Below, in pieces: positions 17,994 to 37,743 of a stretch of DNA of 64,000 nucleotides; positions within the stretch are counted from its first letter, which is position 1, and the number at the start of each line of letters is the position of its first letter. The position numbers were made by a program, and so were the translations under genes. The DNA is from an uncultured bacterium. Its GTDB lineage: Bacteria > Cyanobacteriota > Vampirovibrionia > Gastranaerophilales > Gastranaerophilaceae. The stretch spans positions 1-64,000 of the forward strand of contig CASGCE010000035.1 of assembly GCA_949299935.1 (NCBI GenBank), written 5' to 3'. The notes under the pieces were generated by a model. That model was not told the origin of the DNA. It saw only the letters and a list, made by a program, of their open reading frames with translations, and did not search any database.

Positions 17994-18413
17994 CTATGCC
18001 AAATAGTTATCAACAGCCTGATGTCTGTTGTAACCATTCTGACAAAAAGAAACATGTATCCACTTATTCGTTTTGTCGGATTCCAAAAGAAGTTGATCAA
18101 AGTTAAGCGTTGTTTTTATATAGTTAAAAACCTCGCGTAATTCCTTCTGCGGCACAACAAAATCAACAGCCTGACCAGTTAGATGTTGCGAGTTCGGTTG
18201 ACCGCCTATTTGTTTATTTAATTGATTACATCTGTATCCGCTTGTAATTACCACAGGACAACCAAAATGATTTCTTACCGGCTGTAAAATGTTTTCACAC
18301 AGCACTTTTAAGTTTGCTATAACCGAAACTGAAGGCCTGTTATCAATATTGTTTTGCTCTGCAGTAAACGAATATGTAAGCTCGTTTATCGTAAAATTTT
18401 CAGTAAGTTTCAT
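17994..18413 (-). CDS. Endolysin, peptidase M15A family
   Basis: 139 residues, a single-domain M15A metallopeptidase. The zinc-site motifs are visible: SGYRCNQLNKQIGG, SQHLTGQAVDF (His and Asp ligands) and WIHVSF (last His). M15A enzymes of phages are L,D- or D,D-endopeptidases that cut peptidoglycan cross-bridges. There is no signal peptide, so release would depend on a holin. AAAGGCGG precedes the ATG, and the start overlaps the end of the preceding TM protein gene by 14 nt. It is the last gene of the cluster. Confidence 0.9.
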   Translation of the reverse strand: MKLTENFTINELTYSFTAEQNNIDNRPSVSVIANLKVLCENILQPVRNHFGCPVVITSGYRCNQLNKQIGGQPNSQHLTGQAVDFVVPQKELREVFNYIKTTLNFDQLLLESDKTNKWIHVSFCQNGYNRHQAVDNYLA

Positions 18414-18813
18414 TTTGCACCGCCTTTGCTTTTAATGCCGCAACCTCCAGCTTTATTTGCATTTGCTCTTGACTGATTCTTTGTGTTTTGTCCATTATAT
18501 CGGCAATTGTGTCGCTTGTGACAGAAAGCGTGTGAATTCCCATACCCAAACTCACAAGACCCGTTACAAGCAAACCACCGAAAATACTTAAAAATGTGTT
18601 ATAAAATCGTCTTGTATTCTGTTGAGATTCGTAAAGACTGTTTACTTTATCAACAAATGATATGTGTCCATCGGATTGGTTTATACCTCCAAAGAAAAAA
18701 CAATGCATGTCACGACAATTTCTGGTTAAATCATCGAATTCCTTTTTAAAACTTTCCAATTCACTTTTTAACATCAGATGATGTTCATAACATTTATACG
18801 GTTGCTCAACCAT
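18400..18813 (-). CDS. Phage membrane protein, possible lysis accessory
   Basis: 137 residues with a single strong membrane span around 72-95 (IFGGLLVTGLVSLGMGIHT). A charged coiled-coil-like segment flanks it on each side. Its place directly before the endolysin, with overlapping frames, suggests a holin- or XhlA-like lysis protein. The two Cys near residues 33 and 38 are unexplained. I see no family signature strong enough for a firm name. Confidence 0.6.
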   Translation of the reverse strand: MVEQPYKCYEHHLMLKSELESFKKEFDDLTRNCRDMHCFFFGGINQSDGHISFVDKVNSLYESQQNTRRFYNTFLSIFGGLLVTGLVSLGMGIHTLSVTSDTIADIMDKTQRISQEQMQIKLEVAALKAKAVQNETY

Positions 18814-18815
18814 TT

Positions 18816-19058
18816 TTAATCTTTCCTGTCAAATTTTTTCCTTAATTTGTTGTACATTTCCGTGTGATCGGCCATAAAAAACTCTTTGTAATTATCGGTT
18901 ATCGTAAAGATTTGTTCAGCAATATCAGTAGCCGCTTTAAGCCGATTTTTATCTTTTATAATTTGCGTTTCGCACTGTTCCTTTTTAGCAGTTGTAAAAT
19001 AGTTCAAAAAACTCGTGAAAACCTCGCCAAATGATTTTATTAAACCGATTATATCCAT
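18816..19058 (-). CDS. Small phage-cluster protein of unknown function
   Basis: 80 residues, amphipathic helix at the start (DIIGLIKSFGEVFTSFLNYF) and a charged end. GAGGCGTA precedes the ATG. It starts at the base where the preceding gene ends and is separated by 2 nt from the next, so it belongs to the lysis-end operon. It could be a small lysis or membrane-binding protein. Function not assigned. Confidence 0.55.
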   Translation of the reverse strand: MDIIGLIKSFGEVFTSFLNYFTTAKKEQCETQIIKDKNRLKAATDIAEQIFTITDNYKEFFMADHTEMYNKLRKKFDRKD

Positions 19059-19282: not shown

Positions 19283-19284
19283 TC

Positions 19285-19821
19285 TTAAACCTCACTTTCT
19301 TCATCACTGATATCATCGTTTTCCATAACTGTTTTAACACTTGAATCCGCAACAGCTTTAGGATTTAAAACAGCTGGCTCAACAGAAGGAAATGTTTTAT
19401 TTTCAAATAAATAATCCATTTCCTCCGTCGTGTAACCCAATGCCAGACCTAGCGTATTTACTACAGCATCACCGCGATAATACGAGCTTGCATAATCAAA
19501 TTTGATTAACGCCGGAATGTTATCTGCAAGCATTTGTTTTATATCTTCAGGTTTTATTCCTTTGTCCTCGTACAAAGCTAAAAGTACATCCGCTTTTGTT
19601 AAATTTAACATGTCCAGACGGGCGCGCTCTTTTTGCGCCTGTTCTTGTTCATATGCTTCGGTATTATCAACAACCTCATCATCTTCCAAAACTTCCCAAG
19701 CTCCAAGTGCATATAACGCCGTTTCGGTTTCTTGTATATTTAGCCCCTGCTGATGGTTGTATTCAACTATAAAATCAGCCCTTTGTTTATCGGTATACGG
19801 TTTTTCCAATTTATAACTCAT
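19285..19821 (-). CDS. Putative tail-fibre accessory protein
   Basis: 178 residues, acidic. The N-terminus (EKPYTDKQRADFIVEYNHQQ) resembles the opening of XkdW- or fibre-chaperone-like proteins that follow tail-fibre genes. AAGGAGG lies 7 nt before the ATG. It follows the collar fibre gene by 12 nt. A chaperone or a structural role is inferred from position alone; no catalytic motif is visible. Confidence 0.5.
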   Translation of the reverse strand: MSYKLEKPYTDKQRADFIVEYNHQQGLNIQETETALYALGAWEVLEDDEVVDNTEAYEQEQAQKERARLDMLNLTKADVLLALYEDKGIKPEDIKQMLADNIPALIKFDYASSYYRGDAVVNTLGLALGYTTEEMDYLFENKTFPSVEPAVLNPKAVADSSVKTVMENDDISDEESEV

Positions 19822-19833
19822 TTTATTACCTCC

Positions 19834-21984
19834 TTATGATATATAACCTCTTGCCTGCCAATAAAACCCGCTTTTATTTATTGAACCGTAGACTTCACAG
19901 CCGCTTGTAGAAGTTTTATTAAACGCTAAATTGGCAGTATTATCCTTGTTATAAGAAGCGTTAATCATCGCCCCTGACATTATATAATTCAAATTACTAA
20001 ATGATTTGATAAAAGATAGTGTATAAGAAGTATTCGTTGTAGTAACTTGCCCCCATTGCTCACAATATCCGTTAGAATAAACAAGATACCCGCTGGTTTC
20101 ATTTACATAAGTTTCGGTTATGTAGGGCTTTGTATCATTTGAATGGTCGGTATTAAGTTTACCTTGTAAACCTGTAGCCCATTGGCTCCAATCCATTGCT
20201 GATTGACTGATAGCACCTGTTGCTACCACTACGAAATATCTCAGTGCAACTGCTTCCGGTTGTACAGTGTCGGAATTGCCATAGGTTGAATTTGAAAGGG
20301 ACGCATCAAAAGAAACATAACAATCACCTGAACCGCTTGATCCCCCAGCTCTTTGCGTTGTATCTTTTATGGAAAATGCTCCCGAAGTATAAAATGTACT
20401 ACCTTCCAGCCCTCCATGCGAGCCTTCAATATTCGGCAACCCTGCATTGTAGCTTTTACCCAATTCATCATCAGACATTGCCTGTTGAATAATTGTACCG
20501 TCAGGGATTGTCGGGACTTTGAATTTTTGATTAGTTGTATCAAGACCAAACTTAGCACATTTGCCGTAAGCAGTTATATCACTTTGATATTCAGTATAAG
20601 TGCAGGTGTTTAGCTTCCCATCTACAAGCCAATTTGTGTATAGCGAGGAGAATTGTGATGATGTATATTCCGAACCGTCACAGGGCAAAGAATTTTCAGG
20701 TACAAAATCGGCCGCACAGGTGTGGGCAAATATCGTACCGACAGGCATTGCCCCTTTTCTGCTATTTTCAATCATCCCGTAAATGTCCGCCATCGGAAGC
20801 GTGAAATTCTGATTTTCTTCATCAATCGTATAATAAAGGGCTTCGCCGGTTTGTTCGTATAAATCTTGAACTCTGTCACGATAAGCCGCATCTGCTATCT
20901 TTGAACCTGTCTTACTCAATGTATAAGGGATTTCAACTTCTTCCCCATCTATGATATATGTGTCAGTGCCTGTTTCATTACCGTTAAATACAGGCACTCC
21001 GTCTGACCAAATTGCAACAGATTTTAGGTCGATTGAGCCATAATTAGTAGTATTTGCCGACAAACCTAAAAATCCTATATTAAAATTATTAGTAAATATT
21101 ATATCCGATGTATTAAATTCCTGAGCACCAATTAAATCATCGTTTACATATAAACTAAATTTTCCTTGAATATTATCAACCTTATTCCATACGACTTTTG
21201 CCGTATTAATACTGTTAGTATTTACAGCACCCGTTGTAATTGTTGTACCGTTAACATTCAATATAACACTTGTGCCAGTTGTATTTACATACAAATAAAT
21301 TCTTTTGCTTAGGTCATCAGTACAAATTGCAAACAAACATTGGTAACGGTCATCAGTGGTGTTTTGTACGGGAGTAAATTTCATTGAAATTATCAATGAA
21401 TCTTGTGGTGCAGAGGCAAGATTAGCTATTGTTAAGTAATTTGCTGCACTAAATCCACTTGCGACTCCGTCATCAGAAATAGTCGGAGTTCCGACGAGCT
21501 CAAATTTTGATAAGTTAAACGTTGAATGCGCACGCTCTAATATTGTCGAATATACATCGGCATCATTTGAAATATTACCTGTTGTTAGGGCCTTTGATTG
21601 GTTGATTTTATCCATGGATAAAGACGATATTTCTTGCCATTTGGAAGTATTAGATAAAGAATTGCCGGTATTATTATTAACGAGTGATAAAAATATCGAT
21701 ACTTTGCCGTTGTCCTCTATATTAAATACAATGGATTTATCATTGTATGTTTCATTTTCATCATAAAGAACAGCCCCTTTATACAAGTCGGATACCCCGG
21801 CAATTGAGTAATTTAACCCCTTATACGTATCATCTATAAATTTATTCAAATTATCTCCGGCAAGTACATCCGGATCTACAGGGTCAAATCCTTGTTCAAT
21901 TTGCTCTTGTAAAAAATCTGTCTTAGTTCCGTTAATAGCAAATCCCGAAGGTATCGTAATATTTGGTTTAATTGGTTTTGACAT
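19834..21984 (-). CDS. Tail fibre with LamG-like and phage collar domains
   Basis: 716 residues from the ATG at 21984, behind AAAGGAG. Residues 1-110 look like a baseplate-attachment region. About 150-340 has the pattern of a LamG/concanavalin A-like sandwich (FSLYVNDDLIGAQEF, VAIWSDGVPVFNGN). A phage tail collar domain spans about 410-500, with PVGTIFAHTCA, LPCDGSEYTSSQFSSLY and FKVPTIPDGT. The C-terminus (about 630-716) contains GYLVYSNGYCEQWGQVT, typical of short tail-fibre tips. It should bind a host surface glycan or protein. A carbohydrate-binding domain in front of the collar suggests recognition of polysaccharide. Confidence 0.85.
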   Translation of the reverse strand: MSKPIKPNITIPSGFAINGTKTDFLQEQIEQGFDPVDPDVLAGDNLNKFIDDTYKGLNYSIAGVSDLYKGAVLYDENETYNDKSIVFNIEDNGKVSIFLSLVNNNTGNSLSNTSKWQEISSLSMDKINQSKALTTGNISNDADVYSTILERAHSTFNLSKFELVGTPTISDDGVASGFSAANYLTIANLASAPQDSLIISMKFTPVQNTTDDRYQCLFAICTDDLSKRIYLYVNTTGTSVILNVNGTTITTGAVNTNSINTAKVVWNKVDNIQGKFSLYVNDDLIGAQEFNTSDIIFTNNFNIGFLGLSANTTNYGSIDLKSVAIWSDGVPVFNGNETGTDTYIIDGEEVEIPYTLSKTGSKIADAAYRDRVQDLYEQTGEALYYTIDEENQNFTLPMADIYGMIENSRKGAMPVGTIFAHTCAADFVPENSLPCDGSEYTSSQFSSLYTNWLVDGKLNTCTYTEYQSDITAYGKCAKFGLDTTNQKFKVPTIPDGTIIQQAMSDDELGKSYNAGLPNIEGSHGGLEGSTFYTSGAFSIKDTTQRAGGSSGSGDCYVSFDASLSNSTYGNSDTVQPEAVALRYFVVVATGAISQSAMDWSQWATGLQGKLNTDHSNDTKPYITETYVNETSGYLVYSNGYCEQWGQVTTTNTSYTLSFIKSFSNLNYIMSGAMINASYNKDNTANLAFNKTSTSGCEVYGSINKSGFYWQARGYIS

Positions 21985-22088
21985 CTTTTCTCCTTTCACT
22001 TAATAATATAAATTTGTTATAAATTTCTTTATCAGGCGCGCAAAATTTTTATTACTAATTAAAAATTATTCGTACGAAGTTTAGAAAA

Positions 22089-22472
22089 TTATCTGCCGTT
22101 ACGCTTTGCTGCTATCCAAGTAACAATTCGTTCATCACTGTCCTTTTTCTTAACGGTTGCTTGTATTATGCAGTTGGTAAATATATCTGTGGACCCGTTA
22201 TTCAAATCTCTTATGATTAGAGTATTTTCATAATTATAGAGATTATCCTGTTCTAATATAGGGTAAGAAAGACTGAGCGGATTAAAAGTAGCCGTTATCT
22301 GCCAACCTCTTTTTGGGTTCGGCACGATAAAACACTCACCGAACATGCCATATACAATATTGCCGCTGGACATATTTTCACCCGCTTGGTTTATTTCAGC
22401 TTTTAAACTGCCAAATCCTGTTAAGGTTAGCCCGCGCCATACTAATTCTACATTTTTTATATCATAAACCAT
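22089..22472 (-). CDS. Second tail-tube-like protein (paralog of 26227-26607)
   Basis: 127 residues and clearly related to the tube protein at 26227-26607. Shared segments in the same order are VWRG[LI]TLTG, the WQIT strand, [ED]NTL[IV]IRDLN and RIVTWIAAKRNG. AGAGGATAATT precedes the ATG. It lies between the wedge gene and the fibre gene rather than beside the sheath. A role as tube initiator, plug adaptor or baseplate tube ring is inferred. Alternatively it is a minor tube subunit. Confidence 0.7.
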   Translation of the reverse strand: MVYDIKNVELVWRGLTLTGFGSLKAEINQAGENMSSGNIVYGMFGECFIVPNPKRGWQITATFNPLSLSYPILEQDNLYNYENTLIIRDLNNGSTDIFTNCIIQATVKKKDSDERIVTWIAAKRNGR

Positions 22473-22474
22473 AA

Positions 22475-22819
22475 TTATCCTCTGTTTATCGTCGTTTGAA
22501 TATCAACTTTTCCGTAAACTGTCTTGATACTGGCAGTAACGTTTATTACCAAATTTGTTTTATCATATTCGATGGCAAAATTATTTACTGATAAAACACC
22601 GACAACCCCGCAAATCTGTTTTTTAATGTCATATTCGAGAAATTCTTCGTGTCTCAGTCCGTAAACGTAATCAATTCCGACTGTGTAATCCAATGCCCAG
22701 TCGCCGTAAAATGTATTAAGGGCGATAATTATTTGCTGTTTAATTTCATCAACACCGCTTACCAGTTGAAAATCTCCGTTCTTTAAAGGCAAGCTGTTTT
22801 CTTGCATAAGAATGTCCAT
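22475..22819 (-). CDS. Baseplate wedge protein, GPW/gp25 family
   Basis: 114 residues. The gp25-like plan is plain: LKNGDFQLVSGVDEIKQQI, the LNTFYGDWALDYTVGIDY core (gp25-type EPR-region equivalent), and an IKTVYGKVDI beta strand. AAGGAGC precedes the ATG. In T4, gp25 joins the sheath to the baseplate wedge. It sits directly after the spike gene, as in P2-like V-W order. Confidence 0.85.
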   Translation of the reverse strand: MDILMQENSLPLKNGDFQLVSGVDEIKQQIIIALNTFYGDWALDYTVGIDYVYGLRHEEFLEYDIKKQICGVVGVLSVNNFAIEYDKTNLVINVTASIKTVYGKVDIQTTINRG

Positions 22820-22832: not shown

Positions 22833-23396
22833 CTATATTACACCGCCGGTCGGACTACCGTTATTTCCGTTCGAATGAGTATGCTCCAGAAATTTTTTCC
22901 CGTCGATAACCGTTTCTGTGCCTAAATTAACCGTACTTGCGGATATGTTTACGGTAGCACTATTTATGGTTATATTTTCTCCGGTTATATTTACAACTGC
23001 GCCTTGCTTTGTGCCTATTACAATATCGCCAGTCGGAAATACATATTGAGATTTTCCCGGGTAAAAACCTAATGAAAACAAATTATCATTTATATCGTGA
23101 CATCTTTTTTCAGGATACTTCTGACAGGTGCCGTTAAGATAATCCTCAACATCATTATCGAAAAACCTTACAGTTCCGCAATCGCCTTTACTTAGTCCTA
23201 AAAAAACATATGCCTTTTGGGTTTGCAGATGTTTAACAGGTACATTACACAAATAATCCGCGATACCGTTGTCGTAGTATTCCACATCTACCGAATATTG
23301 GGAATTAACCTTTATAATTTTGCACGGTTTTTCAACCAACATTGCAGATGAAAATCCATTTAAGATATCATCTAAACTTTCATCAAATGTCCTCAT
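22833..23396 (-). CDS. Baseplate central spike, P2 gpV-like
   Basis: 187 residues. An OB-fold-like N-terminus (CKIIKVNSQYSVDVEYYDNG) is followed by a beta-helix of alternating residues (GAVVNITGENITINS, ATVNISASTVNLGT). It ends in FLEHTHSNGNNG, a His-x-His motif. P2 gpV and phi92 gp138 use such a His pair to bind iron at the spike tip. It is the membrane-piercing device of the contractile tail. The start overlaps the spacer of the hub gene by only 2 nt. Confidence 0.85.
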   Translation of the reverse strand: MRTFDESLDDILNGFSSAMLVEKPCKIIKVNSQYSVDVEYYDNGIADYLCNVPVKHLQTQKAYVFLGLSKGDCGTVRFFDNDVEDYLNGTCQKYPEKRCHDINDNLFSLGFYPGKSQYVFPTGDIVIGTKQGAVVNITGENITINSATVNISASTVNLGTETVIDGKKFLEHTHSNGNNGSPTGGVI

Positions 23397-23398: not shown

Positions 23399-24211
23399 TT
23401 ACACCACAATCTCTGTTATTATCGCTTTTCCATAATTATTTCCGAATGAATGAACTCTGTTGACCAGACATAATCCGGAAAATTCCGTAAAATTACATTT
23501 TACGGTACTGTTAGGGTTAATCTGCGGAATAAATCCGGTTGTAATTAACATTTCATTTGTGCCAAGACGAGTAGGACGCTTTGCATTTTGGATATTCAGT
23601 TCAACAGCGGTTTCCTCCACCGGCTCATCTTGTACTGACGCTATATGCGCAATCTCATTTTGAACACTGAATTTTAAATTTAAAGTTGTGCAAATCTTCT
23701 GCAATATCGTATGCGCAAGTCCAACAGCCTTGTAATTCTCGTAAGTTCTCTCCGGCAAGTTGTCGTTAAACGTTCTTATATCAAGATTCATAGCTTTTAT
23801 GCAATCTTTGATAATCACTGTAGAGGTAACTCTACCACGGTAATTTTTGTTTATATAAGCGTTTGTATAACTTTGTTTGCCATCTATGAGTTCCATGTAA
23901 ACCGCAGCATCAGCAGACTTGAAAGCATTTTTTTTATAAACTTTATTAATGTTGCCTCTAAAAACCAATACCGGTTCTTCTTCTCCATATCCTGTATATA
24001 TGCAAATCTTTTGGTCTTTCTCAACAAGATTTTGGTAATTCGTATCATCCAAATTCCAAATTGTAATAACCGCTTTATTATTGGCGGACTTGTTTGTTTT
24101 TGTTATATCAAAATCCGTATCAAAATCAGCAATTTGGATAATATCGTCCGTTTCAGGTTCAGTTTTTATAATAAGATTGAATTTTAAAGATTTTTTATTC
24201 ATCATATTCAT
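23399..24211 (-). CDS. Baseplate hub protein
   Basis: 270 residues. Strand-rich N-terminal half with FDITKTNKSANNKAVITIWN, then VFRGNINKVYKK. This is the tail hub pattern seen in XkdQ, gpD and gp27-like proteins, which form a trimer on which the spike sits. The C-terminal half has a small middle domain (TYENYKAVGLAHTILQKICT). It overlaps the plug gene end by 17 nt and the spike gene follows. A hub role is inferred from order and fold-like pattern. Confidence 0.7.
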   Translation of the reverse strand: MNMMNKKSLKFNLIIKTEPETDDIIQIADFDTDFDITKTNKSANNKAVITIWNLDDTNYQNLVEKDQKICIYTGYGEEEPVLVFRGNINKVYKKNAFKSADAAVYMELIDGKQSYTNAYINKNYRGRVTSTVIIKDCIKAMNLDIRTFNDNLPERTYENYKAVGLAHTILQKICTTLNLKFSVQNEIAHIASVQDEPVEETAVELNIQNAKRPTRLGTNEMLITTGFIPQINPNSTVKCNFTEFSGLCLVNRVHSFGNNYGKAIITEIVV

Positions 24212-24527
24212 CTTCCGAGTACAAAAGGTAATAGTCCGTGTGAAAATTATCTTGCAAAGGTTCAGTAGTTAAGCCGTATTTATTTATCAGAAAAAGTGAG
24301 CCCGATATTATATCACTATCTTTTAAACGTTTAATAATATTAGTCAACGAAGTGAGAGCTCTGCCCTTCACAAGAAAATTATTTACATTATTTTTTATAA
24401 GATATATGTCAATAACACAAAATGTACCGCACCACTGAAAACGAAACATATACTCTTTTCCGTTAATACTATAAGATAAACTGGTTTTAGGCTTTGTTGA
24501 AAGATCAGGTAAAGTAAGTTTTTTCAT
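24195..24527 (-). CDS. Baseplate plug-like protein
   Basis: 110 residues. The pattern of SLSYSINGKEYMFRFQW, then a Leu/Val-rich strand (FLVKGRALTSLTNI), then SGSLFLINKYG and a final YYLLYSEDE, fits the phage baseplate plug family (DUF6983-type) often found next to the tape measure and hub. The plug closes the tube at the baseplate. Family recognition is by eye. Confidence 0.6.
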   Translation of the reverse strand: MKKLTLPDLSTKPKTSLSYSINGKEYMFRFQWCGTFCVIDIYLIKNNVNNFLVKGRALTSLTNIIKRLKDSDIISGSLFLINKYGLTTEPLQDNFHTDYYLLYSEDEYDE

Positions 24528-24530: not shown

Positions 24531-25514
24531 TTACACCGCCTTTGTATATCCGCGTTTCAATATAAAATCATCAAGTGCATCAGTTAAAGCAGTTCGAACA
24601 GCCTCACCTATCTCGTGAGGATTATCGTATGCTGTATTAACCTGGATTGCACCCCGCTCAAGGTTAACACTCAAGCCATCAGAATTATTTATTTTCATTT
24701 GGCTGTCAGATATTGAATTAAACTGTTCCTGACGAGTTAAAATATTTTCCGTTGCAGGCAAAAAGTCTTTATTCACCAATGATATATTTTCCGCACCAAA
24801 AACTTTTTGTAACGGAATTAATGGTTGTAAGTCATTGATTGAATAACCGGTATTTTTTTCATAAATGTTACTTGCAGCGGAAACATTTTTCAATTCTGAA
24901 ATCGTTTTTGCAGTATTTGAATGTACATTTGTTAAATTTTTATTGTTAACATCCGATATAATCGAGTTAGCATTTTGCCGACGGGGTAAAGGGAAGCTGT
25001 TTGAAATACTCAGTAAGCTTGAAAATAAATTCTTAGGCATCTGAATAATTTTGTTCTCAAAATTTTTATATAAATCAGAAAAAATAAGATTAAATTTTTC
25101 AGAAGGATTTTTGTAATCAAAAACTTGATTAAAATTAATCAAATTACCAAAACGAGTCAAAAGTTTGCTCATAAAAAATGAGTTTTGATTAGACCGTTCT
25201 GTAGTACCGTAAGCACTGGGCTCTATCAACTTTTTCAACTTATCTTTCTCAACATATTGAGTTGAGACGTCGTTATTATCAGGTTCAAGCAAAGTAACGG
25301 TTTTTAGTGAATTATTCAAAATATTCAAATCACCGTTAATTTTACCGAAGATTTTACGAAACAAATTTCCATCTTTCAGGTTGAACAAATTTTTTATAGA
25401 ATTTGACAAATTTTTAACAGACTTATCCGCATCAGCTTGAAGCTTTTCAAGTTTTTCAAAACCGGTTTCATCCAACTCGGACACTATTTTTACAATAAAC
25501 TTTTCAATTGCCAT
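24531..25514 (-). CDS. Short tape measure protein
   Basis: 327 residues, unusually short for a tape measure. The N-terminus has the coiled-coil-like start (LDETGFEKLEKLQADADKSV) and the C-terminus matches the tape-measure end pattern (GAIQVNTAYDNPHEIGEAVR). The middle is low in hydrophobic residues, with no transmembrane stretch and no lytic domain. It follows the chaperone pair, the classical position. By the usual relation of tail length to tape-measure length, the tail would be short. Confidence 0.7.
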   Translation of the reverse strand: MAIEKFIVKIVSELDETGFEKLEKLQADADKSVKNLSNSIKNLFNLKDGNLFRKIFGKINGDLNILNNSLKTVTLLEPDNNDVSTQYVEKDKLKKLIEPSAYGTTERSNQNSFFMSKLLTRFGNLINFNQVFDYKNPSEKFNLIFSDLYKNFENKIIQMPKNLFSSLLSISNSFPLPRRQNANSIISDVNNKNLTNVHSNTAKTISELKNVSAASNIYEKNTGYSINDLQPLIPLQKVFGAENISLVNKDFLPATENILTRQEQFNSISDSQMKINNSDGLSVNLERGAIQVNTAYDNPHEIGEAVRTALTDALDDFILKRGYTKAV

Positions 25515-29414: not shown

Positions 29415-30401
29415 TTACAATTCATCCTGAACATCCGAGTTTGCAAGCAACAAATTTAATGCAGAATTTGTTAAAACAGTACTTTGCGGGTTGACATATT
29501 CAACAAAATACGAACCGCAATAGACATTTTTAGCCTGCCAGTTTCCGACTTGTTTATTAACACAGCGGCTTACTGAATTATCAGATTGGTTAGTGGACGT
29601 ATTTTTTGAAGCAGGTTGATAAAGATAAGTCAAATTTATGTTGGATTTTATCTCATAGGCATTTGAAATAACAGGATTATATGATTTAAGCAGAACATCC
29701 TCGTAAATATTATGTCCTAACCTTAAAACTATATATTTTTTTGCAGCCATAACCTCTGCCAATTTATCGGAGTAATCATTAATCTTCCAATTTTTTGCAT
29801 TTTCATTTTTAATATGAACAGTCAAAGTAAGGTTTATCGGAGCTAACGAATCAACATAGTCTGTATCAACGAACTGCACCGTTTTCTTTTCGGCAGTAAG
29901 AGTAAAATAAGTATACTTAAACTCCTCTACAACATCAAACGGAATTTCATCGCCATATTTATCAAATCTGGTATTAAGATTAATTTCATCCTGCATGGCA
30001 ATGAGCCCGCTGTTAAAAGCAGACAAAAAACTTGCCGGATTTATCGTACCCTCCAGTGCAGCATTTTTCATTCCTATTAAGCTGTTGTAACCGGATTTTT
30101 CTAATGTAGCATTAAATGCCGGTGCATAAGTATTAAATAATGCATCCAGCATAGCTTCGTTGGTTATCGGTTCATCATTAACTATTTTGCTGATGGCACC
30201 CACCGCATAACGTTGTACCAACTCAGTTTTGCCTTGCAGAGTCAAATTTTCTGACATTTTAAATAAGTCAAGATTTAAATTATCCTTGTAATTTTTTAAG
30301 GCATCGCATAACCCGTCTTTCGTTCTGGCGAAATCTTGCGAATTCAATTCATTAAGCTTAATTTCTTCTTTTGGAATGTACAATGATGCCTCTGCACTCA
30401 T
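29415..30401 (-). CDS. Phage structural protein of unknown type
   Basis: 328 residues between the DUF2612-like gene and baseplate J. The first half is helical (EEIKLNELNSQDFARTKDG, then a region rich in Asn and Ala). The second half has alternating strands with aromatic residues (INLTLTVHIKNENAKNWKI, SNINLTYLYQPAS). Two Cys in the last 60 residues may form a pair. Position argues for a baseplate or tail component. I do not recognise a family. Confidence 0.55.
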   Translation of the reverse strand: MSAEASLYIPKEEIKLNELNSQDFARTKDGLCDALKNYKDNLNLDLFKMSENLTLQGKTELVQRYAVGAISKIVNDEPITNEAMLDALFNTYAPAFNATLEKSGYNSLIGMKNAALEGTINPASFLSAFNSGLIAMQDEINLNTRFDKYGDEIPFDVVEEFKYTYFTLTAEKKTVQFVDTDYVDSLAPINLTLTVHIKNENAKNWKINDYSDKLAEVMAAKKYIVLRLGHNIYEDVLLKSYNPVISNAYEIKSNINLTYLYQPASKNTSTNQSDNSVSRCVNKQVGNWQAKNVYCGSYFVEYVNPQSTVLTNSALNLLLANSDVQDEL

Positions 30402-30414: not shown

Positions 30415-30984
30415 CTATGATTCTATTTTTTCCAAATAGATACCGTCACCTAACACCTGCTGAATGTATGAAATCGTATTTTGGGTAAGTATAAGCAAGT
30501 TACCGACCAATTTAATCTTAATTTTGCATTTACCGGTTTTGGTAATCAAAACCTGATTTGCATTGGTAATCGTGCTAACAATGTCAATAACCTCATTTTC
30601 TGTTCCGCAAGCTGAATTAGCACCAATATAAGCAAAAATCTTCTGAATGAATTCTGCATCCGAAAGACTTAACGGCACATTAGGGTTTATTCCGGATATC
30701 AAGAAATAAAATCGTTTTTCGACATTAAGATGTTTACGATTAACACAAAAATAATCTCCAAAATCCTTTTCATCTCTCGTGGCACCAACCTCAGCACCTG
30801 CATAATCAAGCCAAATTCCTCTTGCATCATTTATATTCAAGCTGTTAACAAGGTAATTTATAGCGTTCTGTAAGTTAGTAAATCTTGAACCTATAGCTGA
30901 GAGAATAACACTAACGTCATTATTTTCACGTAAATAAGGTATTATATATTTAAGCGCCAGTACCTGATAATCGATTAAGTTCAT
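30415..30984 (-). CDS. Phage tail/baseplate protein, DUF2612-like
   Basis: 189 residues. Pattern ARGIWLDYAGAEVGATRDEKD, then FLISGINPNVPLSLSDAEFIQ, resembles the DUF2612 tail/baseplate proteins of contractile phages, where a GxWLDxxGxxVGxxR segment is typical. Likely a wedge or baseplate periphery component. Confident only that it is a tail or baseplate gene by position. Confidence 0.6.
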   Translation of the reverse strand: MNLIDYQVLALKYIIPYLRENNDVSVILSAIGSRFTNLQNAINYLVNSLNINDARGIWLDYAGAEVGATRDEKDFGDYFCVNRKHLNVEKRFYFLISGINPNVPLSLSDAEFIQKIFAYIGANSACGTENEVIDIVSTITNANQVLITKTGKCKIKIKLVGNLLILTQNTISYIQQVLGDGIYLEKIES

Positions 30985-30995: not shown

Positions 30996-31523
30996 TTATT
31001 TGTATTCTATATCCATATAAAGTTCTTTACCTTCCATAGAAATATGTTCTTTAATATCCTCAAATTCAAAGACAATACAGATTTCCTTTCTAAACATTTG
31101 ATTTGTTTCGGCAAAGGAACTTAAATCTCTTACAGGACCTGCTAAAAGCTCATTAACAGTTATTCCGATTTCAGCAAGTGAAACATGAGTTGAATCAGTT
31201 TCTAGAAAAAGCTGTTCAATATAATCAATAATTTCATCAGATTCTTTTTCAGCATCACTGGGATTTTTGTAAAGCGAATATACAGAAAAAATAACCTCTA
31301 TTCTATACTGAGCGCGAATAAAATTTTTTCCATCAGAGTTGTAACTTTCAAAGCGCTTATTAATCCTTTTTCTTTCGCCAGTTTTCAATAATACAAAAGG
31401 GTAAGAAGGCGCCTCAGCACGTAACCTTTCTCTAAATATCTTGCCCTTAAGCATCGGGAATTCACTTGACATACAAACGTTAAAAAAGCTGAATAGCTTT
31501 GTTTTAAATTCATAAGTTTTCAT
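30996..31523 (-). CDS. Tail terminator / head-tail joining protein
   Basis: 175 residues. It starts with GGTGAAG before the ATG and overlaps the head-closure gene by 14 nt. Structure: a helical start, basic middle (GERKRINKRFESYNSDGKN), and an acidic IVFEFEDIKEH end. This resembles neck-terminator (LIC_12616-type) proteins that cap the tail tube at the neck. Named by position and length; no diagnostic motif. Confidence 0.55.
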   Translation of the reverse strand: MKTYEFKTKLFSFFNVCMSSEFPMLKGKIFRERLRAEAPSYPFVLLKTGERKRINKRFESYNSDGKNFIRAQYRIEVIFSVYSLYKNPSDAEKESDEIIDYIEQLFLETDSTHVSLAEIGITVNELLAGPVRDLSSFAETNQMFRKEICIVFEFEDIKEHISMEGKELYMDIEYK

Positions 31524-31839
31524 CAGTCTTCACCAAATATCCTTTGTAATAACTCAATCCTCTCAACTGCCAAAATTCAACTTCACGGATTTCAAACAAA
31601 CTTCCGTTTATTTCTAATCTGTATGCAGGTACCAATTTTTCGGAGCAGTAAAGAACACCTGTTATACCGAATTTATCACCAATTTCAGAACCAACCAGAG
31701 TTTCAATCGGTTCATAATAACCCGAAACTTCTTTATCAAAAGTCCAAGTTGAGATACTTGCTCCAGACGTTTCATCGATTTTGACATTTCTTTTTAATAA
31801 TTTATATTTATTATTTGAAAAAAAATTTATAATAGACAC
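31510..31839 (-). CDS. Head closure / head-tail adaptor protein
   Basis: 109 residues, GTG start with AAAAAGGAATAG upstream. The pattern SASISTWTF-like start (SGASISTWTFDKEVSGYYEP) with IETLVGSEIGDKFGITG and a C-terminal IREVEFWQLRGL strand resembles the small head-closure proteins found between the portal-side connector and tail terminator. Its start abuts the rightward metallophosphoesterase promoter region. Confidence 0.6.
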   Translation of the reverse strand: MSIINFFSNNKYKLLKRNVKIDETSGASISTWTFDKEVSGYYEPIETLVGSEIGDKFGITGVLYCSEKLVPAYRLEINGSLFEIREVEFWQLRGLSYYKGYLVKTDENL

Positions 31840-31869
31840 TTGTACTATTCCTTTTTAAAAATTTTATGT

Positions 31870-31875
31870 TATAAT
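31870..31875 (+). promoter_or_regulatory. -10 box of the metallophosphoesterase gene
   Basis: TATAAT preceded by TGT (extended -10) and followed by six bases to the ATG. No Shine-Dalgarno. A leaderless transcript is predicted. The promoter faces against the phage-like genes. Confidence 0.5.
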
Positions 31876-31881
31876 TTAAAA

Positions 31882-32583
31882 ATGCGGGAAATATTATTAA
31901 TATTATTTTTAATAAGTTGCTGGATATTTGCGGTTGAGCCGAATATGTTACGCACTACAGAGTACGAAATAGAGTTTAACGAACTTGCGGGAAAGAGAGC
32001 TGTTTTAGCGGGAGATTTTCATTTCAGGAACAAAAATCGCGTACGAAAAGTAGTAGAAAAAATTAACGAACAAAATGCTGACTACATATTTTACATAGGC
32101 GATTATACGGAGAGCGTACCTGAAAAATACGTCATAGAAAAACTTTCCAAAGTAAACGCACCTGTTTTTTCCGTATTAGGGAACCATGACCTTTCAGAAG
32201 AATTCAGCAAACTGCCTAATCTTTTAAATAACAGCAACTTAGAGAAAGACACAATAACTGTTGCAGGATTAAATTATTACACACCGGATATTTCAAAGGC
32301 ACTTGAAAATGCAAGTAAACCGATAATACTGTTAAGTCACAACCCGGACATCTATAAGAAAGTACCCAAAAAAGTAAAACTTATTCTTTCAGGTCACACT
32401 CACGGTGGTCAAGTAACCCTTTTTGGTAAACCGTTTGTGACAATTTCAAAATACAAATTTGGGAAAGGAAAAATAAATAAGCGGCTGGTAATAACGGGGG
32501 GAACCGGAACAAGTATTATACCGGCAAGACTTTTTAACCCGCCCGAAATTACCATAATAAAGTTCATCCCCGAAAAGGAATAA
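31882..32583 (+). CDS. Membrane-anchored calcineurin-like metallophosphoesterase
   Basis: 233 residues from the ATG at 31882. An N-terminal hydrophobic segment (EILLILFLISCWIFAVEP) acts as anchor or signal. All five metal-site blocks are present: AGDFHF, YIGDY, LGNHD, LLSHNPD and SGHTHGGQ. This is the YkuE/LpxG-like subgroup. Substrates of relatives include lipid A precursors, phosphodiesters and nucleotides, so the substrate here is open. It is the only confident rightward gene in the phage-like cluster, lying between the head-closure gene and the connectors. It may be an inserted host or moron gene. Confidence 0.8.
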   Translation: MREILLILFLISCWIFAVEPNMLRTTEYEIEFNELAGKRAVLAGDFHFRNKNRVRKVVEKINEQNADYIFYIGDYTESVPEKYVIEKLSKVNAPVFSVLGNHDLSEEFSKLPNLLNNSNLEKDTITVAGLNYYTPDISKALENASKPIILLSHNPDIYKKVPKKVKLILSGHTHGGQVTLFGKPFVTISKYKFGKGKINKRLVITGGTGTSIIPARLFNPPEITIIKFIPEKE

Positions 32584-32958: not shown

Positions 32959-33408
32959 TTAGTAAATCTCCTCAAAATAGGCGTTCTCAATATCAAAACC
33001 TTTTTTTAAAAGTCCTGAAAGAAGAAGCTTTGCTTCAGCACAGAGTTCAAAGTCGGCATTATCACGAAAAGTTATACTTGCAGAACCAAGCGTTAGAGAT
33101 TTTATATTAGGATTATCTTCATAATCGTTCAAAAACAATCCCAAAACCTGTTCACAAACAGCAGCTTTCACTCTATATAACACCTCGTATCTTTTGCCGC
33201 GAATAATCCTTGGAAAAGACATATACTGTTTCGGATCAGCTTTTATCCCAAGAAAGGGCTGTATATCTATTTGTCTTGATGCTGTAATTAATGCTTTTTC
33301 CTGAACGGTCTTATCCAATTCAGACCAAAAATCAGCCTTAAGTTTTTCTTCAAAATACTGGTTAGCTTCGTCTAAAGTTACATATGAATTTTTATATATT
33401 TCAAGCAT
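32959..33408 (-). CDS. Head-tail connector protein
   Basis: 149 residues. The opening YVTLDEANQYFEEKLKADF with SELDKTVQEKALITASRQID matches phage head-tail connectors (often labelled DnaT-like). These gp6-type proteins bind below the portal. It follows the capsid gene after a strong terminator. Confidence 0.7.
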   Translation of the reverse strand: MLEIYKNSYVTLDEANQYFEEKLKADFWSELDKTVQEKALITASRQIDIQPFLGIKADPKQYMSFPRIIRGKRYEVLYRVKAAVCEQVLGLFLNDYEDNPNIKSLTLGSASITFRDNADFELCAEAKLLLSGLLKKGFDIENAYFEEIY

Positions 33409-33420
33409 TTTTCACCTCTT

Positions 33421-33447
33421 AAAAAAAAGGCAGGGTTAACCCCTGCC
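33421..33447 (-). terminator. Intrinsic terminator after the major capsid gene
   Basis: On the minus strand GGCAGGG pairs with CCCTGCC around a TTAAC-type loop, followed by eight T. It lies 31 nt past the capsid stop codon and splits the cluster into a terminase-to-capsid unit and a connector-tail unit. A second small hairpin (ATCCCC/GGGGTAT) lies at 33451-33465. Confidence 0.85.
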
Positions 33448-33477
33448 ACAATCCCCAAAGGGGTATGTATGGAGTTA

Positions 33478-34440
33478 TTATGATTCTAATTCGTCACTTG
33501 CAGCCGGTGCCAAAATAGCAAACGGATATCCATTTTTAGCATTTTTACGTGTCGCCGGATTTGCAATTTGAACTCCCAAACGCATCACGACACGCAAAGC
33601 TACCATATCTTGCTGCGCAAGATTATACGCAATAGTACCGTCAGTATTTTGAATTATAGCTTCAGTCAAGAGTTTATAAGTAACATCCTGCCTTATTGAG
33701 TAAACAGCCTTTGAAAAATCCCCGCACACCATTAATGCTTTTGAAGTATCAAATACACCGTTATTATCATAAGCAATAGGTCTGCCTACAAGACTTGAAG
33801 CAGTGTTTGTAATCAAGGAAGAATTATATAAAAGATTATTATTTTTATCTCTTAAATCTCTTAAATAAGCCTCAAAAGTAGCATCCGCATAAAAACCGTT
33901 AACCACAAATCCTGATTTTTCAACTAAAGACATTATCCCCTCTACACCGATAATGTCGGCAGCGACATCGGAGTTTGTACCAAGAGTAACAATTTGCGAT
34001 TTAGCAGCGGCACTGCTGTATATTGAATTAGGCCAGCTGGCAGGTTTATTAGTACCAAAGAGGATTGCCTTATCAATAGCTATTCCCATAGCTTCAACTA
34101 TTTGTGGCTTAATTTCCTCCCAAATATCAAAAGAGGAATCATCTAAAACAGCTTCTGGTATAGGAACAATTACGGCAAGTTCTTCTGCAGTCAAGGTTAA
34201 CTTATCCCATTCAGCCTTTGTCGTTTTTTTCTGAGCGGTATCACCAGATAAAAAATATGCATCCGGCAAAGCATTTTGCACCGGCAACGTTTTTTGCTTT
34301 GAGGGCATATTAGGCAATCTTCTCATCAAAGGCAACAATTTTGAAGCCTGAGGAGTTTCTTTAATAATATCTTTGGAAATTTCCAAAGGAATAAGAGCAT
34401 CCGCTCCTGTTCTGTCAATTAAATTTGCATCAGTAGTCAT
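33478..34440 (-). CDS. Major capsid protein
   Basis: 320 residues from the ATG at 34440, behind AAAGGA. HK97-like features: an N-terminal arm (MTTDANLIDRTGADALIPLE), TGQ-like E-loop region, an A-domain style tail (RQDVTYKLLTEAIIQNTDGTIAYNLAQQDMVALRVVMRLG), which is typical of the Phage_capsid family. A separate scaffold gene (34464-34898) precedes it. No protease gene is evident. Size suggests an icosahedral head with one main subunit. Confidence 0.85.
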   Translation of the reverse strand: MTTDANLIDRTGADALIPLEISKDIIKETPQASKLLPLMRRLPNMPSKQKTLPVQNALPDAYFLSGDTAQKKTTKAEWDKLTLTAEELAVIVPIPEAVLDDSSFDIWEEIKPQIVEAMGIAIDKAILFGTNKPASWPNSIYSSAAAKSQIVTLGTNSDVAADIIGVEGIMSLVEKSGFVVNGFYADATFEAYLRDLRDKNNNLLYNSSLITNTASSLVGRPIAYDNNGVFDTSKALMVCGDFSKAVYSIRQDVTYKLLTEAIIQNTDGTIAYNLAQQDMVALRVVMRLGVQIANPATRKNAKNGYPFAILAPAASDELES

Positions 34441-34463
34441 ATTTTTTCCTTTCATTTTATCTA

Positions 34464-34898
34464 TTATCTTCCTGCAGCCTGTCGGATAAATGTATTCATT
34501 AATTCCGAAGGACTGAGATTATTCATCAACGAAGGTTTAAAACCTCCGCCATGGTTTTCAATTTCGTTTTTAAACAAAATCCCGTTTTCACGTTTGTATT
34601 CGTCAATCCAGTTTTCAATATTTTCGCAATCATCTGGAATAATATTTGCAACCAAGTCTGATTTAATACAACCTGCTTTATCCAAAAGCAATTGGCGTTT
34701 TACCAACAAATTTTCCTTTTTAGTAAGCGAAAGTTCTTCTTGCAGGGATTTAAGTTGTTCTTCAGCGGTTTGCTTTTCTGCAGAGAAATTTTTCGCGTTA
34801 ATTCTATACTTAGCAGCTTCCCTTCTGAGATCTGCAATTTGATTTTTTAAAGCTTCAAGCTCAGAATCAGCTCCGGGCTGATTAAATTCTTTTTCCAT
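34464..34898 (-). CDS. Capsid scaffolding protein
   Basis: 144 residues from the ATG at 34898, behind GGGGAG. The middle (about 15-70) is a coiled coil rich in Glu, Leu and Lys (ELEALKNQIADLRREA). The order portal-scaffold-capsid is the usual one. It would guide capsid assembly and be released or digested. No protease motif. Confidence 0.75.
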   Translation of the reverse strand: MEKEFNQPGADSELEALKNQIADLRREAAKYRINAKNFSAEKQTAEEQLKSLQEELSLTKKENLLVKRQLLLDKAGCIKSDLVANIIPDDCENIENWIDEYKRENGILFKNEIENHGGGFKPSLMNNLSPSELMNTFIRQAAGR

Positions 34899-34900
34899 TT

Positions 34901-36091
34901 TTATTCTCCCCAAACAATTTTCACATTTACATTTTTATATCCGGCGAATGCAAGCGCGCATTTTACAGTCTTTTGTATGGCATTATTCATAGAAACTGTT
35001 CTGATATCATCAACCTTGGCTATGGCAGAAGAAAAAATTTGTTTTAAACTTTCTCCGGACATATTGGAATCAATATCCAGCCCATAAGCCTGCGGAGGTG
35101 TTTTAGACAGCATATAAAACATCTGCATCAAAGTATCAACATGAGATTTAATTGCATCAGATTGCAAATCAGCGGTAATATATTCGGGTTTTGTGCCATC
35201 TCTGCCTATGGTTATAAAATCAGAATTTGGAAAATGTCTTTCTCCCGTTGAAGGATTCATTTCAGTATTTTCAATGCTTCCCGCAAGTTTGGGATTTGCA
35301 TGACGGTTAATTATTTTAGAATTTTGAGAAATCGTAAGCATAATTTCTTCGACAATGCTTTCACATGATTTGTAGTCACTTTCTCCATAGTAAGTGTCAC
35401 TTTCCGTAGTGTTTTTAACGTGAAATAACACAAAATCATTCCACTTATCAGAGAAATTATCCACAGCAATAACATTAAAAGCCTCCAAATTATCTATAGG
35501 TCTTAAAAGCTTGCCATTTGATATCTCCCAAATTTCATTTTCAATAAAACCCTTATGAATTTTTTCAATACGTTTATAAATTTTACCGTCTTTAACTATA
35601 TCATAAAATAAAATATGTCCTGAAAGATTATTTAAATTGCCGTCATTAAAGACCGGAAACCAGCAATCGGGACATACTGAGAAAATTTTCACCTCATTGT
35701 CAACAATAGCAACCTTTATCAGTGCATCTCCAAATCTGGAATTATCAATTGCTATTTCTTTTAACACAGAAATAAAATTGTTATTTGAATTAATCTTTTC
35801 CCAATCATCTTTTGCATTTTGGTCAACTACAATTTCAAAATTTTGATTAGTAATTAAAAATTTATAAAAGTCAGTCATCGCTTTAAAAAGGTTAACCTCA
35901 ATAAGGCTTTGTGCAGTTGTATTACTTAAAGGATAACGTTGACGAATTTTTCTTAAAACATTAGCAAACGGTCTTGCAAAATTACTCCTATATAAATCTC
36001 TGTACCTTGAATAATTCCGTAAACGTTCAACATCTTGTGCACACCATTTTAAATTCCTAAAATTTTCATTTATTTCAAATGTAGTAAGCAT
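34901..36091 (-). CDS. Portal protein
   Basis: 396 residues from the ATG at 36091, behind GAGAGGAAAT. Portal-like pattern: an N-terminal RQRYPLSNTTAQSLIEVN, a wing domain with FGDALIKVAIVDNEVKIFSV, then KTPPQAYGLDIDSNMSGESL in the stem and SGESLKQIFSSAIAKVDDIR in the clip. It is somewhat short for a portal (often 450-550). It forms the dodecameric DNA gate and overlaps the terminase gene frame in its upstream region. Confidence 0.75.
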   Translation of the reverse strand: MLTTFEINENFRNLKWCAQDVERLRNYSRYRDLYRSNFARPFANVLRKIRQRYPLSNTTAQSLIEVNLFKAMTDFYKFLITNQNFEIVVDQNAKDDWEKINSNNNFISVLKEIAIDNSRFGDALIKVAIVDNEVKIFSVCPDCWFPVFNDGNLNNLSGHILFYDIVKDGKIYKRIEKIHKGFIENEIWEISNGKLLRPIDNLEAFNVIAVDNFSDKWNDFVLFHVKNTTESDTYYGESDYKSCESIVEEIMLTISQNSKIINRHANPKLAGSIENTEMNPSTGERHFPNSDFITIGRDGTKPEYITADLQSDAIKSHVDTLMQMFYMLSKTPPQAYGLDIDSNMSGESLKQIFSSAIAKVDDIRTVSMNNAIQKTVKCALAFAGYKNVNVKIVWGE

Positions 36092-36104
36092 AAATTTCCT
36101 CTCG

Positions 36105-37343
36105 TTAATTTTCTGTAAGATATTTGTAAAGCCCATATCTTAATGCATCCATACAATCATCATTAATTTTCAACGGGACATCCTCTTTAGAACCGTCGTA
36201 GCTGTACACTTCGAATTCATCAAGGGTATGAAGGCACTTTTTAGATACAATAAGCTTATCGTAGTTAATAAGTGAACGAACAAGAGCAATACTATCGTCC
36301 ACTTTAGGTTTTTCCTCGTAAATAATCAAATTTGTGTAACGTCTTAATTTTTCATTTTGCTCGGGTCTTGCGTTATCGCAATTAGCATAACTAAAGAACT
36401 TACCATATTCATTTTGTTTCTGATTAATCCAGCTAATCACGCCTTCAAAATCCAATTTAGTCGAATAAAGCTCATCAATCACATAACAAGTACCGTTCAC
36501 ACTGCTACCCAAAAGCAAACATGCAGTAGGGTGATTCCAGCCCCAATCGATCCCCAAAAAAAATTCAATAATCTCATTTTTTTTAATTTTATCAAGGAGC
36601 ATAGCCTTATGAATTGAATGCTTATCGCGACTAAATGTATCGTATACAAGTCCGTCGGCAATAACCCATAAACCGTCAATTTTTCTTTTTTTAAAAGCAC
36701 CTTTATAAAGTTTTTCCTGATTGCTTATAAAAATTTTTGACAGATTTGCGTTATCGAGCATTGTAAAATGCCAATACTCAAATACATCCTTACCTTCGCC
36801 TTTCAAATAAGGTTTTATTTTTTCCTGATAAAGCCAATGATTAGAGCTTTCGGGATTACTATCCGCAAAGGCTCTGGCATTATCGGGAGTAAGCCTGCTT
36901 AATGCCATATTATAAAACCCGTAATTATGTTTAGGCAACTCATTTGCATACCAAAAATCCCAGGTTCCGCCTTGGATTGAATTCACGCTATCAGATTTTC
37001 CGCCACCTATAACGTAGCAGTTATAGCTTTTTCCAAAAAGTTTTATGTCCAATTCTCCGCTTGAATTGTTGTAACGAACTTTTCCGCCGAGATAGTTCTC
37101 AATAAACGGTTTCAATTCCAAAATAACATTATTCTTAACGGAATTTCTGGAATAACCTGAAAAAACCTTTAAATATTCATTACCGACGAATTCAAAAATT
37201 TGCGGAATTTTTTGAATAATATTCAAAGTTTTTCCGCTGCGAACGGCACCATCAAGCAGAGTAAAAAGCGGGAAATTCTCGGGTGGTTTACTTAAGAATC
37301 TTCTGGCTTTCTCACTGTATTTACTATTTTCCCATCTTATCAT
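36105..37343 (-). CDS. Terminase large subunit
   Basis: 412 residues. The ATPase part has Walker A GAVRSGKT (32-39) and a Walker B-like segment near 131-136 (WYANELP). The nuclease part has GIDWGWNHP near 264 and NDDCMDALRYGL near 395, the acidic RNase H-like residues. It packages DNA into the prohead. The small subunit gene overlaps its start by 20 nt. A functional terminase argues that the cluster can make DNA-containing particles. Confidence 0.88.
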   Translation of the reverse strand: MIRWENSKYSEKARRFLSKPPENFPLFTLLDGAVRSGKTLNIIQKIPQIFEFVGNEYLKVFSGYSRNSVKNNVILELKPFIENYLGGKVRYNNSSGELDIKLFGKSYNCYVIGGGKSDSVNSIQGGTWDFWYANELPKHNYGFYNMALSRLTPDNARAFADSNPESSNHWLYQEKIKPYLKGEGKDVFEYWHFTMLDNANLSKIFISNQEKLYKGAFKKRKIDGLWVIADGLVYDTFSRDKHSIHKAMLLDKIKKNEIIEFFLGIDWGWNHPTACLLLGSSVNGTCYVIDELYSTKLDFEGVISWINQKQNEYGKFFSYANCDNARPEQNEKLRRYTNLIIYEEKPKVDDSIALVRSLINYDKLIVSKKCLHTLDEFEVYSYDGSKEDVPLKINDDCMDALRYGLYKYLTEN

Positions 37344-37743
37344 TTGTTAATTCGGACATTGCTTTCAAATAAGCATCTCTAATATCATTATTTGAATTTG
37401 TTGAAGATTCTTTGCACATATCGGTAAGATTTTTTGCGGCAAATGCCGTATATGTTGCATTATAATATCCGCGAAGTGCAAGATCATTTAACATATCTTT
37501 TTGCAACGCTAGACATTTTTTATAGGTATCCGAAAATTTCGGATATTCTTTGCGCCATTGATTTAAAACTTCAGGACAAACACCTATATCTACTGAAAAT
37601 TTTTCAAAAGTTGGTAATATATTGGGCAATTCTACCGATTTTTCAACATTATTTTTATCAAAAATACGTTTTTCAAAAGTATGTGGTATATTAAAAAACT
37701 CCAACATTTGTTTGCAATATATTTTTTTATACCTTTTAGTCAT
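37324..37743 (-). CDS. Terminase small subunit
   Basis: 139 residues, first gene of the leftward cluster. A Lys/Arg-rich start and a central helical region (VCPEVLNQWRKEYPKFSDTY) look like a DNA-binding helix-turn-helix of small terminases. The start ATG at 37743 has no clear binding site, so another start is possible. It overlaps the large subunit gene by 20 nt. Confidence 0.7.
   Translation of the reverse strand: MTKRYKKIYCKQMLEFFNIPHTFEKRIFDKNNVEKSVELPNILPTFEKFSVDIGVCPEVLNQWRKEYPKFSDTYKKCLALQKDMLNDLALRGYYNATYTAFAAKNLTDMCKESSTNSNNDIRDAYLKAMSELTNDKMGK

Follow-up and report, generated by a model that had tools for sequence, protein, structure and literature searches.

A phage-derived gene cluster with a contractile tail in gut Gastranaerophilales as a candidate gene transfer agent-like system

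Only a few lineages are known to have gene transfer agents (GTAs), which are easily confused with defective prophages. They are defined by six features (PMC9662315). In gut anaerobes, the FpGTA of Faecalibacterium occurred in every genome of a single genus that was examined, is encoded by two operons and comes with particle data; the same study reported GTA activity in gut Gram-positive families, and its main text does not mention Cyanobacteriota (PMC12946183). The locus considered here is a cluster of ~20 kb (positions 17994–37743) within a window of 64 kb, by which the whole stretch of DNA analysed is meant, and which forms part of contig C35 (165 kb) in a 1.68-Mb metagenome-assembled genome (MAG) of Candidatus Gastranaerophilales (Cyanobacteriota). 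Gastranaerophilales are the non-photosynthetic gut branch of Cyanobacteriota. Family searches recognised in the cluster an intact contractile tail, an HK97 head with portal and capsid, the small and large terminase subunits (TerS and TerL) and lysis genes.

It is proposed, at a probability of roughly 0.6, that the cluster encodes a viriform, a phage particle that has been domesticated, has passed mostly by vertical descent and would work like a GTA. That it specifies a domesticated DNA-packaging particle of some kind appears likely from its gene content and inheritance; whether actual gene transfer would be its function is an even bet. If the proposal is correct, it adds Cyanobacteriota to the lineages that have a GTA, through gut bacteria represented here by MAGs only. 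A literature search returned no paper joining GTAs and Gastranaerophilales and none on Gastranaerophilales prophages, an absence that is not proof of novelty.

Chromosomal site, inheritance and selection

The comparison covered 16 genomes of the genus (g1) of the window's own genome (G000) and a sample of 146 genomes of the family. These are largely MAGs, some of them fragmented, and their completeness bounds every absence reported here; contig breaks fall at repeats beside the genes for o328, baseplate J (bpJ) and gpI. The cluster lies between recN and hsp20–trmA. The terS gene stands beside recN in 9/16 genus genomes, and the endolysin–hsp20–trmA end was found in all seven genomes with that side assembled. 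Where contiguous, the order is rpoD–tRNAVal–recN–cluster–hsp20–trmA. Genes for capsid, TerL and sheath are all missing from five genomes (G003, G005, G006, G013 and G014), which carry an empty site, recN–rpoD–tRNAVal–(hsp20)–trmA, the core of which is also present in genus g2. In G007 and G008, cluster genes are on other contigs in shuffled order. The initial annotation had placed the cluster among host genes at recN–hsp20 and proposed synteny there as a check; the same site was recovered in 9/9 main-clade cluster genomes, a fixed locus set against the five empty sites.

Family searches of the cluster proteins matched no integrase, recombinase, phage repressor or replication family. The tyrosine recombinases of the genome lie on contigs C1, C7 and C27, with none on the window's contig C35. 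No direct repeat longer than 12 bp ties tRNA-Val or the two cluster ends, where the 12-bp matches are AT-rich, chance-like words. Both searches agree with the initial report that integrase, replication, lysogeny and att signals are missing. The integrase and att site, or repressor and replication genes, of an active temperate prophage were thus not found; nor was the pattern of a phage satellite (own integrase or primase, dependence on a helper capsid), as the cluster encodes its own head, tail and terminase. As a separate observation, short, invertase-size tyrosine recombinases (~183–203 amino acids (aa)) occur several per genome (C27 and C7 of G000; relatives), often near contig ends, which suggests phase-variable loci.

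In the recN tree the nine cluster genomes form one clade (support 0.95), and a TerL, portal and capsid tree has the same main splits. The unlinked dnaE gene, used because the rpoB protein tree is too conserved to resolve the genus, supports the same seven-genome clade and the pair G004 and G015. Protein distances correlate with those of dnaE for TerL (r = 0.64, p = 0.007), portal (r = 0.60, p = 0.004), sheath (r = 0.61, p = 0.009) and endolysin (r = 0.79, p = 0.002), with recN, for scale, at 0.81 (statistics uncorrected). In the pairs G004–G015 and G010–G011, head genes and host genes show similar synonymous divergence. Judged by these trees and distances, inheritance is mostly, not purely, vertical.

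Purifying selection acts throughout: the ratio of non-synonymous to synonymous substitution (dN/dS) is 0.01–0.3 for nearly all genes and <0.5 for all. It is 0.014–0.062 for the capsid and ~0.03–0.08 for TerL, portal and sheath, and reaches its highest values, 0.26–0.49, in the tape measure and the overlapping frame. Nearly all recognisable genes, where assembled, are kept in nine species, at a divergence of up to ~0.6 at 4-fold sites. These values agree with two initial points, that no broken gene was seen and that a dN/dS well below 1 would support domestication.

Three of the six GTA features could be read from these data. The proteins belong to caudoviricete families expected to form tailed particles; the system is endogenised, with a fixed locus lacking integrase and att sites and with shuffled order in G007, G008 and other genera, where GTAs often occupy several loci; and it has diversified mostly vertically with its hosts, with one clear replacement (in G012) and losses or gains within the genus. 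As the other three features (particles filled with mostly random host DNA, incomplete packaging of the system's own genes, and delivery of the packaged DNA to other cells) are experimental, the cluster is classed as a GTA-like viriform, not as a proven GTA.

Control region, gene inventory and proposed mechanism

A conserved, putative control region upstream of terS is a new element of this analysis; with the promoter and a divergent small gene counted, the unit reaches ~38151. In 9/9 genomes the terS–recN interval holds a divergent gene of 42–47 codons, a promoter-like block and ACAC repeats (alignment of eight genomes plus G004). The repeats are spaced at 10 bp in three to eight units, some imperfect, and mostly end in ACACTTGTT; a TAAAGT-like −10 element sits 17 nt after the TTGTTT of the repeat end. 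The pattern matched its own genome at this promoter alone, and the cluster promoter carries the only three-unit array in 570 kb of that genome, with 0 arrays in 10 Markov shuffles. Across sixteen genomes, with 0–1 mismatch allowed, the pattern was found at the cluster promoter and at one other site: in G010 and G011 it lies at the start of pilT, and the array again abuts the −35 element (TTGTCA-17-TATAAT; L362:72 in G010, L361:1501 in G011). Retraction of type IV pili, which serves DNA uptake, is powered by PilT. In G004 (L360), a weaker array of three units stands before a gene resembling dicarboxylate symporters.

The small divergent gene accompanies the cluster in 9/9 genomes and occurs in none of the cluster-free recN loci examined. 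Its codon-position pattern (.70/.43/.90), a pN/pS of 0.39 and the closure of the other frames indicate coding constraint. An AlphaFold2 (AF2) model of the 44-aa protein (predicted local distance difference test score (pLDDT) 85) has an extended N-terminus followed by helices at residues 12–23 and 28–38. Pfam and Foldseek gave no match, the protein probably being too small for Foldseek, and we infer from the strand–helix–helix order that it is probably a ribbon-helix-helix protein.

The open reading frames (ORFs), strands and coordinates first assigned proved correct, and family matches to terminase, portal, capsid, tail and lysis proteins support the initial statement that all structural and packaging genes are recognisable (Table 1). 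The same annotation described one transcriptional direction with strong terminators at both ends. A terminator does close the operon, in all five genomes checked; however, a metallophosphoesterase gene on the plus strand is embedded in the cluster, and a further strong terminator lies internally, after the capsid gene. An RNA-family search of the region found the tRNA alone.

Table 1. Features of the cluster and its control region, with positions in the 64-kb window and the evidence for each.
Feature	Position	Strand	Evidence or remark
Small gene, 44 aa; beta-alpha-alpha (ribbon-helix-helix-like) candidate regulator	38020..38151	+	divergent from terS
Control region	37744..38019	-	block GATAATATGCTAATATAC-n3-TGTCTATAACCCA; 10-bp phased ACAC repeats ending ACACTTGTT; -10-like TAAAGT
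Terminase small subunit, helix-turn-helix (HTH)-like segment kept	37324..37743	-	phrog_3064 9e-19; alignment
Terminase large subunit	36105..37343	-	phrog_2 7e-36; TIGR01547 PBSX family 104.4 bits, cut-off 105.05
Portal	34901..36136	-	phrog_533 8e-26
Scaffold-like coiled-coil protein, between portal and capsid (putative function)	34464..34913	-	position; conservation in relatives
Major capsid protein, HK97 fold	33478..34455	-	PF05065 1e-33; dN/dS 0.014-0.062
Intrinsic terminator after capsid gene	33429..33447	-	hairpin there in 9/9 genomes, sequence changed, most with T run after
Head-tail adaptor Ad1	32959..33408	-	phrog_477 3e-14
DUF6973-type small protein, not seen in phage relatives	32588..32956	-	32-36% identity to g6 protein matching PF22322 2e-10
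Membrane-anchored calcineurin-like phosphoesterase, embedded	31840..32583	+	PF00149 5e-14; LpxG/YaeI-like below cut-off
Putative head-tail connector-type protein	31510..31839	-	position; conserved in g1, g2, prophage L068
Putative tail terminator-type protein	30996..31523	-	position; conserved directly before sheath in L079, L068, G004, G015
Baseplate gpI-like protein	30415..30984	-	phrog_6277 6e-17; phrog_1160 baseplate
o328, fast-evolving baseplate/tube-initiator-like protein, repeated in several relatives	29415..30401	-	weak AF2 model; Foldseek to contractile baseplate chains
Baseplate J wedge	27876..29075	-	PF04865 5e-12
Tail sheath	26629..27765	-	phrog_205 2e-20
Tail tube, paralogue A	26227..26607	-	phrog_280 9e-10
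Tail assembly chaperone, overlaps next ORF in another frame (putative frameshift)	25680..26156	-	position between tube and tape measure
Overlapping ORF, candidate frameshift part of chaperone	25504..25761	-	conserved in relatives
Short tape measure, 327 aa	24531..25514	-	position; matches 501-505 aa tape measures of L068, L079
Baseplate plug, Pam3 gp18 type	24195..24527	-	PF22479 4e-12
Baseplate hub	23399..24211	-	phrog_196 2e-26; PDB hub proteins
Spike	22833..23396	-	PF18352 2e-4, below cut-off; position
gp25-like sheath initiator	22475..22819	-	phrog_120 1e-19
Tube-like paralogue B	22089..22472	-	50% identical to paralogue A
Tail fibre	19834..21999	-	PF21882 6.5e-4, below cut-off; very divergent among relatives
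Fibre-associated small protein	19285..19821	-	phrog_6034 3e-7
Two small lysis-side proteins, 74 + 80 aa	18816..19282	-	conserved beside endolysin
Holin-like protein	18400..18813	-	single hydrophobic segment (hydropathy)
M15 peptidase endolysin	17994..18413	-	PF08291 2e-24; phrog_894 8e-42
Terminator at operon end	17958..17977	-	also in G002, G009, G012, G015

A short tape measure, sheath and portal had initially been taken to suggest a small particle. The tape measure (327 vs 501–505 aa) and portal (411 vs 458–461 aa) are indeed shorter than in phage relatives, but the sheath (378 vs 379–380 aa) is not short. As the tape measure bears on tail length only, its shortness points to a short tail but not to a small head, and the small-particle reading was rejected. 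A 'DnaT-like' Pfam match of one adaptor was likewise set aside, since PHROGs read the protein as a head-tail adaptor and not as a replication gene. The o328 model is weak (pLDDT 66); its best Foldseek matches are contractile baseplate chains, including that of cyanophage Pam3, which suggests a baseplate or tube-initiator role only.

The embedded phosphoesterase lies between head genes in 9/9 genomes with the cluster at recN and also beside cluster genes in genus g6; it perhaps has a role in envelope access or lysis. An ORF of 70 aa lies between hsp20 and the endolysin gene (17739–17951), also in G001, G009 and G015, and was not detected in cluster-free loci. Extra full or C-terminal copies of o328 (L257:14959–16565 and L019:156–1157, both in G011; L248 in G008), 82–91% identical in DNA, resemble a cassette or a reservoir for gene conversion. 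Repeats with a period of ~60–81 bp, tandem or dispersed and absent from the window, lie between tail genes (by o328, bpJ and gpI), at contig ends and at borders of rearranged blocks (ends of L255, L256, L257, L254, L263 and L251, in G012, G011, G009, G010 and G007); such repeats may drive gene shuffling.

For a GTA-like particle, the following sequence of events is proposed. A host cue would cause an activator to bind the 10-bp phased repeats that adjoin the −35 element, and the protein of the divergent small gene, probably of ribbon-helix-helix type, would modulate this switch. A fraction of cells would then make heads, the capsid-proximal terminator raising the ratio of capsid to tail. The PBSX-like TerL would fill the heads with chromosomal DNA by headful packaging, the M15 endolysin would bring about lysis, and the short contractile tail would deliver the DNA to relatives.

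Phage relatives and alternative explanations

The closest phages are an IMG/VR contig, IMGVR_UViG_3300032167_000607 (L079), and a prophage in G125 (L068). Both share the core gene set, with sheaths 69–77%, capsids 66–67% and TerL 63–72% identical to those of the cluster. They differ in having a minor capsid protein that carries a PBECR1 nuclease, in the greater length of their portal and tape measure and in their canonical gene order; L068 also has an S24 repressor, and L079 Mom, YopX and ParB-like genes, none of which the cluster has. In the capsid tree, L079 and L068 fall outside the g1 and g2 clade (support 1.0); the TerL tree is less clear, with L068 joining g2 at 0.8. Against phage records, capsid identity was ≤51% and TerL identity ~30% at most, and the sheath had no match.

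In genus g6 a related capsid was found in 22/23 genomes and in 18/18 good ones, with the same flanking host genes in several. The g6 tail is of siphovirus type (DUF2460 protein), and no sheath was found in a four-genus sample except that of the G125 prophage. Related heads with two tail types thus appear to be kept by different genera, through one domestication and a tail swap or through two domestications, neither of which is favoured by the trees. The g6 clusters also hold recurrent 174–175-aa secreted-looking paralogues (SYTLKGEVTYTVERARKEAF) at L070:18586–19784 and L078:4551–5078. In g2, the stretch between portal and tail genes (L058:4837–9185) encodes kelch-repeat proteins in tandem and a lipase-like protein of 623 aa that matches Lipase_3 weakly, possibly cargo with partner genes. 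A bolder extension would make all these loci one fixed Gastranaerophilales GTA system, in which slow-evolving heads carry contractile or siphovirus-type tails according to genus and are switched in g1 by the 44-aa regulator and the array shared with pilT, coupling DNA export to uptake; this is tentative and rather doubtful.

Several observations weigh against a GTA-like viriform. The system is known here from genes alone, not from particles, packaged DNA or transfer. Its presence is patchy: cluster genes occur in 10–11/16 congeners, and the capsid protein in 27/146 family genomes, concentrated in few genera. The structural genes of G012 resemble those of G002 although G012 is almost identical to G011 elsewhere: between G011 and G012 the 4-fold-site difference is 0.05–0.11 in host genes (dnaE, trmA, PFOR), 0.1–0.2 in lysis genes and 0.4–0.7 in structural genes, so one of the two replaced its structural genes by recombination. 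In the capsid tree G007 joins genus g2, and together these cases show that exchange between species occurs. The array link to pilT is limited to two genomes. Among capsids of known structure, the closest are entries of 7 or 9 chains, and the head may be big enough for the whole 20-kb cluster. Finally, TerS retains a conserved HTH-like segment (LPTFEKFAVNIGVCxxxLxxWCKEH, by eye in the alignment), which counts against a simple GTA; known GTA TerS proteins have no detectable DNA-binding domain (PMC11841831), a trait that is usual for GTAs but does not define them.

The initial view that a domesticated DNA-packaging particle is plausible is therefore strengthened by the vertical signal, purifying selection, lack of mobility genes and conserved control region, and tempered by presence/absence variation and the swap in G012. 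Host-tracking trees and distances, looked for as a sign of domestication, were mostly seen, with G012 and G007 departing from them. Presence/absence variation with flanking att repeats had been named as a contrary outcome; the variation exists (5/16 congeners are empty), but without att repeats or an integrase.

The main rival is a killing particle of PBSX type. In this reading a domesticated phage would package fragments of host DNA but act as a bacteriocin, its contractile tail killing non-immune relatives without transducing them. PBSX itself packages 13.4-kb host fragments and has been called GTA-like (PMC12946183), and the TerL of the cluster is nearest to the PBSX terminase family. The fast evolution of the fibre and of o328, and the swapping of structural genes between close species, are also as under diversifying selection. 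However, the head genes are the slowest evolving (capsid dN/dS ~0.02), so that a filled head seems to matter, and sister genus g6 pairs related heads with a non-contractile tail, which rules out contraction-type killing there. Furthermore, none of the genes recognised in the window is an immunity gene, and this explanation is regarded as rather unlikely.

Less probable again is that the cluster is what remains of a defective or satellite-like prophage, or that related phages inserted repeatedly at a hot spot by tRNA-Val. The nearby tRNA, the variable presence in the genus and true prophages such as L068 in the family would suit it, but cluster divergence tracks host divergence in most pairs, att repeats, integrase and repressor were not found, and the genes are intact in nine species that have position, promoter region, phosphoesterase and lysis end in common. 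A tailocin or a phage-derived contractile protein-delivery device without DNA use, despite the complete baseplate, sheath and lysis genes, is very improbable: tailocins lose head genes, as initially argued, and here the strongest constraint falls on TerL, portal and capsid, all of them intact.

Comparison with known systems

For a GTA-like viriform, the locus supplies tests at the sequence level, namely empty sites, host-congruent trees, nearby true phages as a contrast and a conserved promoter region. The two tail types on related heads and the possible link between the cluster promoter and pilT are testable ideas on particle origin and control.

Like the cluster, PBSX of Bacillus subtilis has a contractile tail. 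It also resembles the cluster in its PBSX-family TerL, domestication and lysis genes, but sequence similarity is low, the control region is another one, and the heads related to those of the cluster carry another tail type in sister genera. FpGTA is a GTA-like system in gut anaerobes, and is likened to the cluster at the level of the system, not gene by gene; it is podovirus-like and has a Gram-positive host (PMC12946183). With RcGTA, BaGTA and BhGTA (PMC9662315), the cluster shares head, tail and lysis genes of caudoviricete origin, the lack of genes for replication and integration, endogenisation, purifying selection and a largely host-matched diversification. Similarly, in sister genera its genes stand in altered order, have other genes between them and lie in part on separate contigs. 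It differs from these GTAs in its contractile tail, Cyanobacteriota host and HTH-like TerS segment, in being described from gene content, and in its unrelated sequences, for which the only link is to RcGTA, by a remote match of capsid profile (3e-8).

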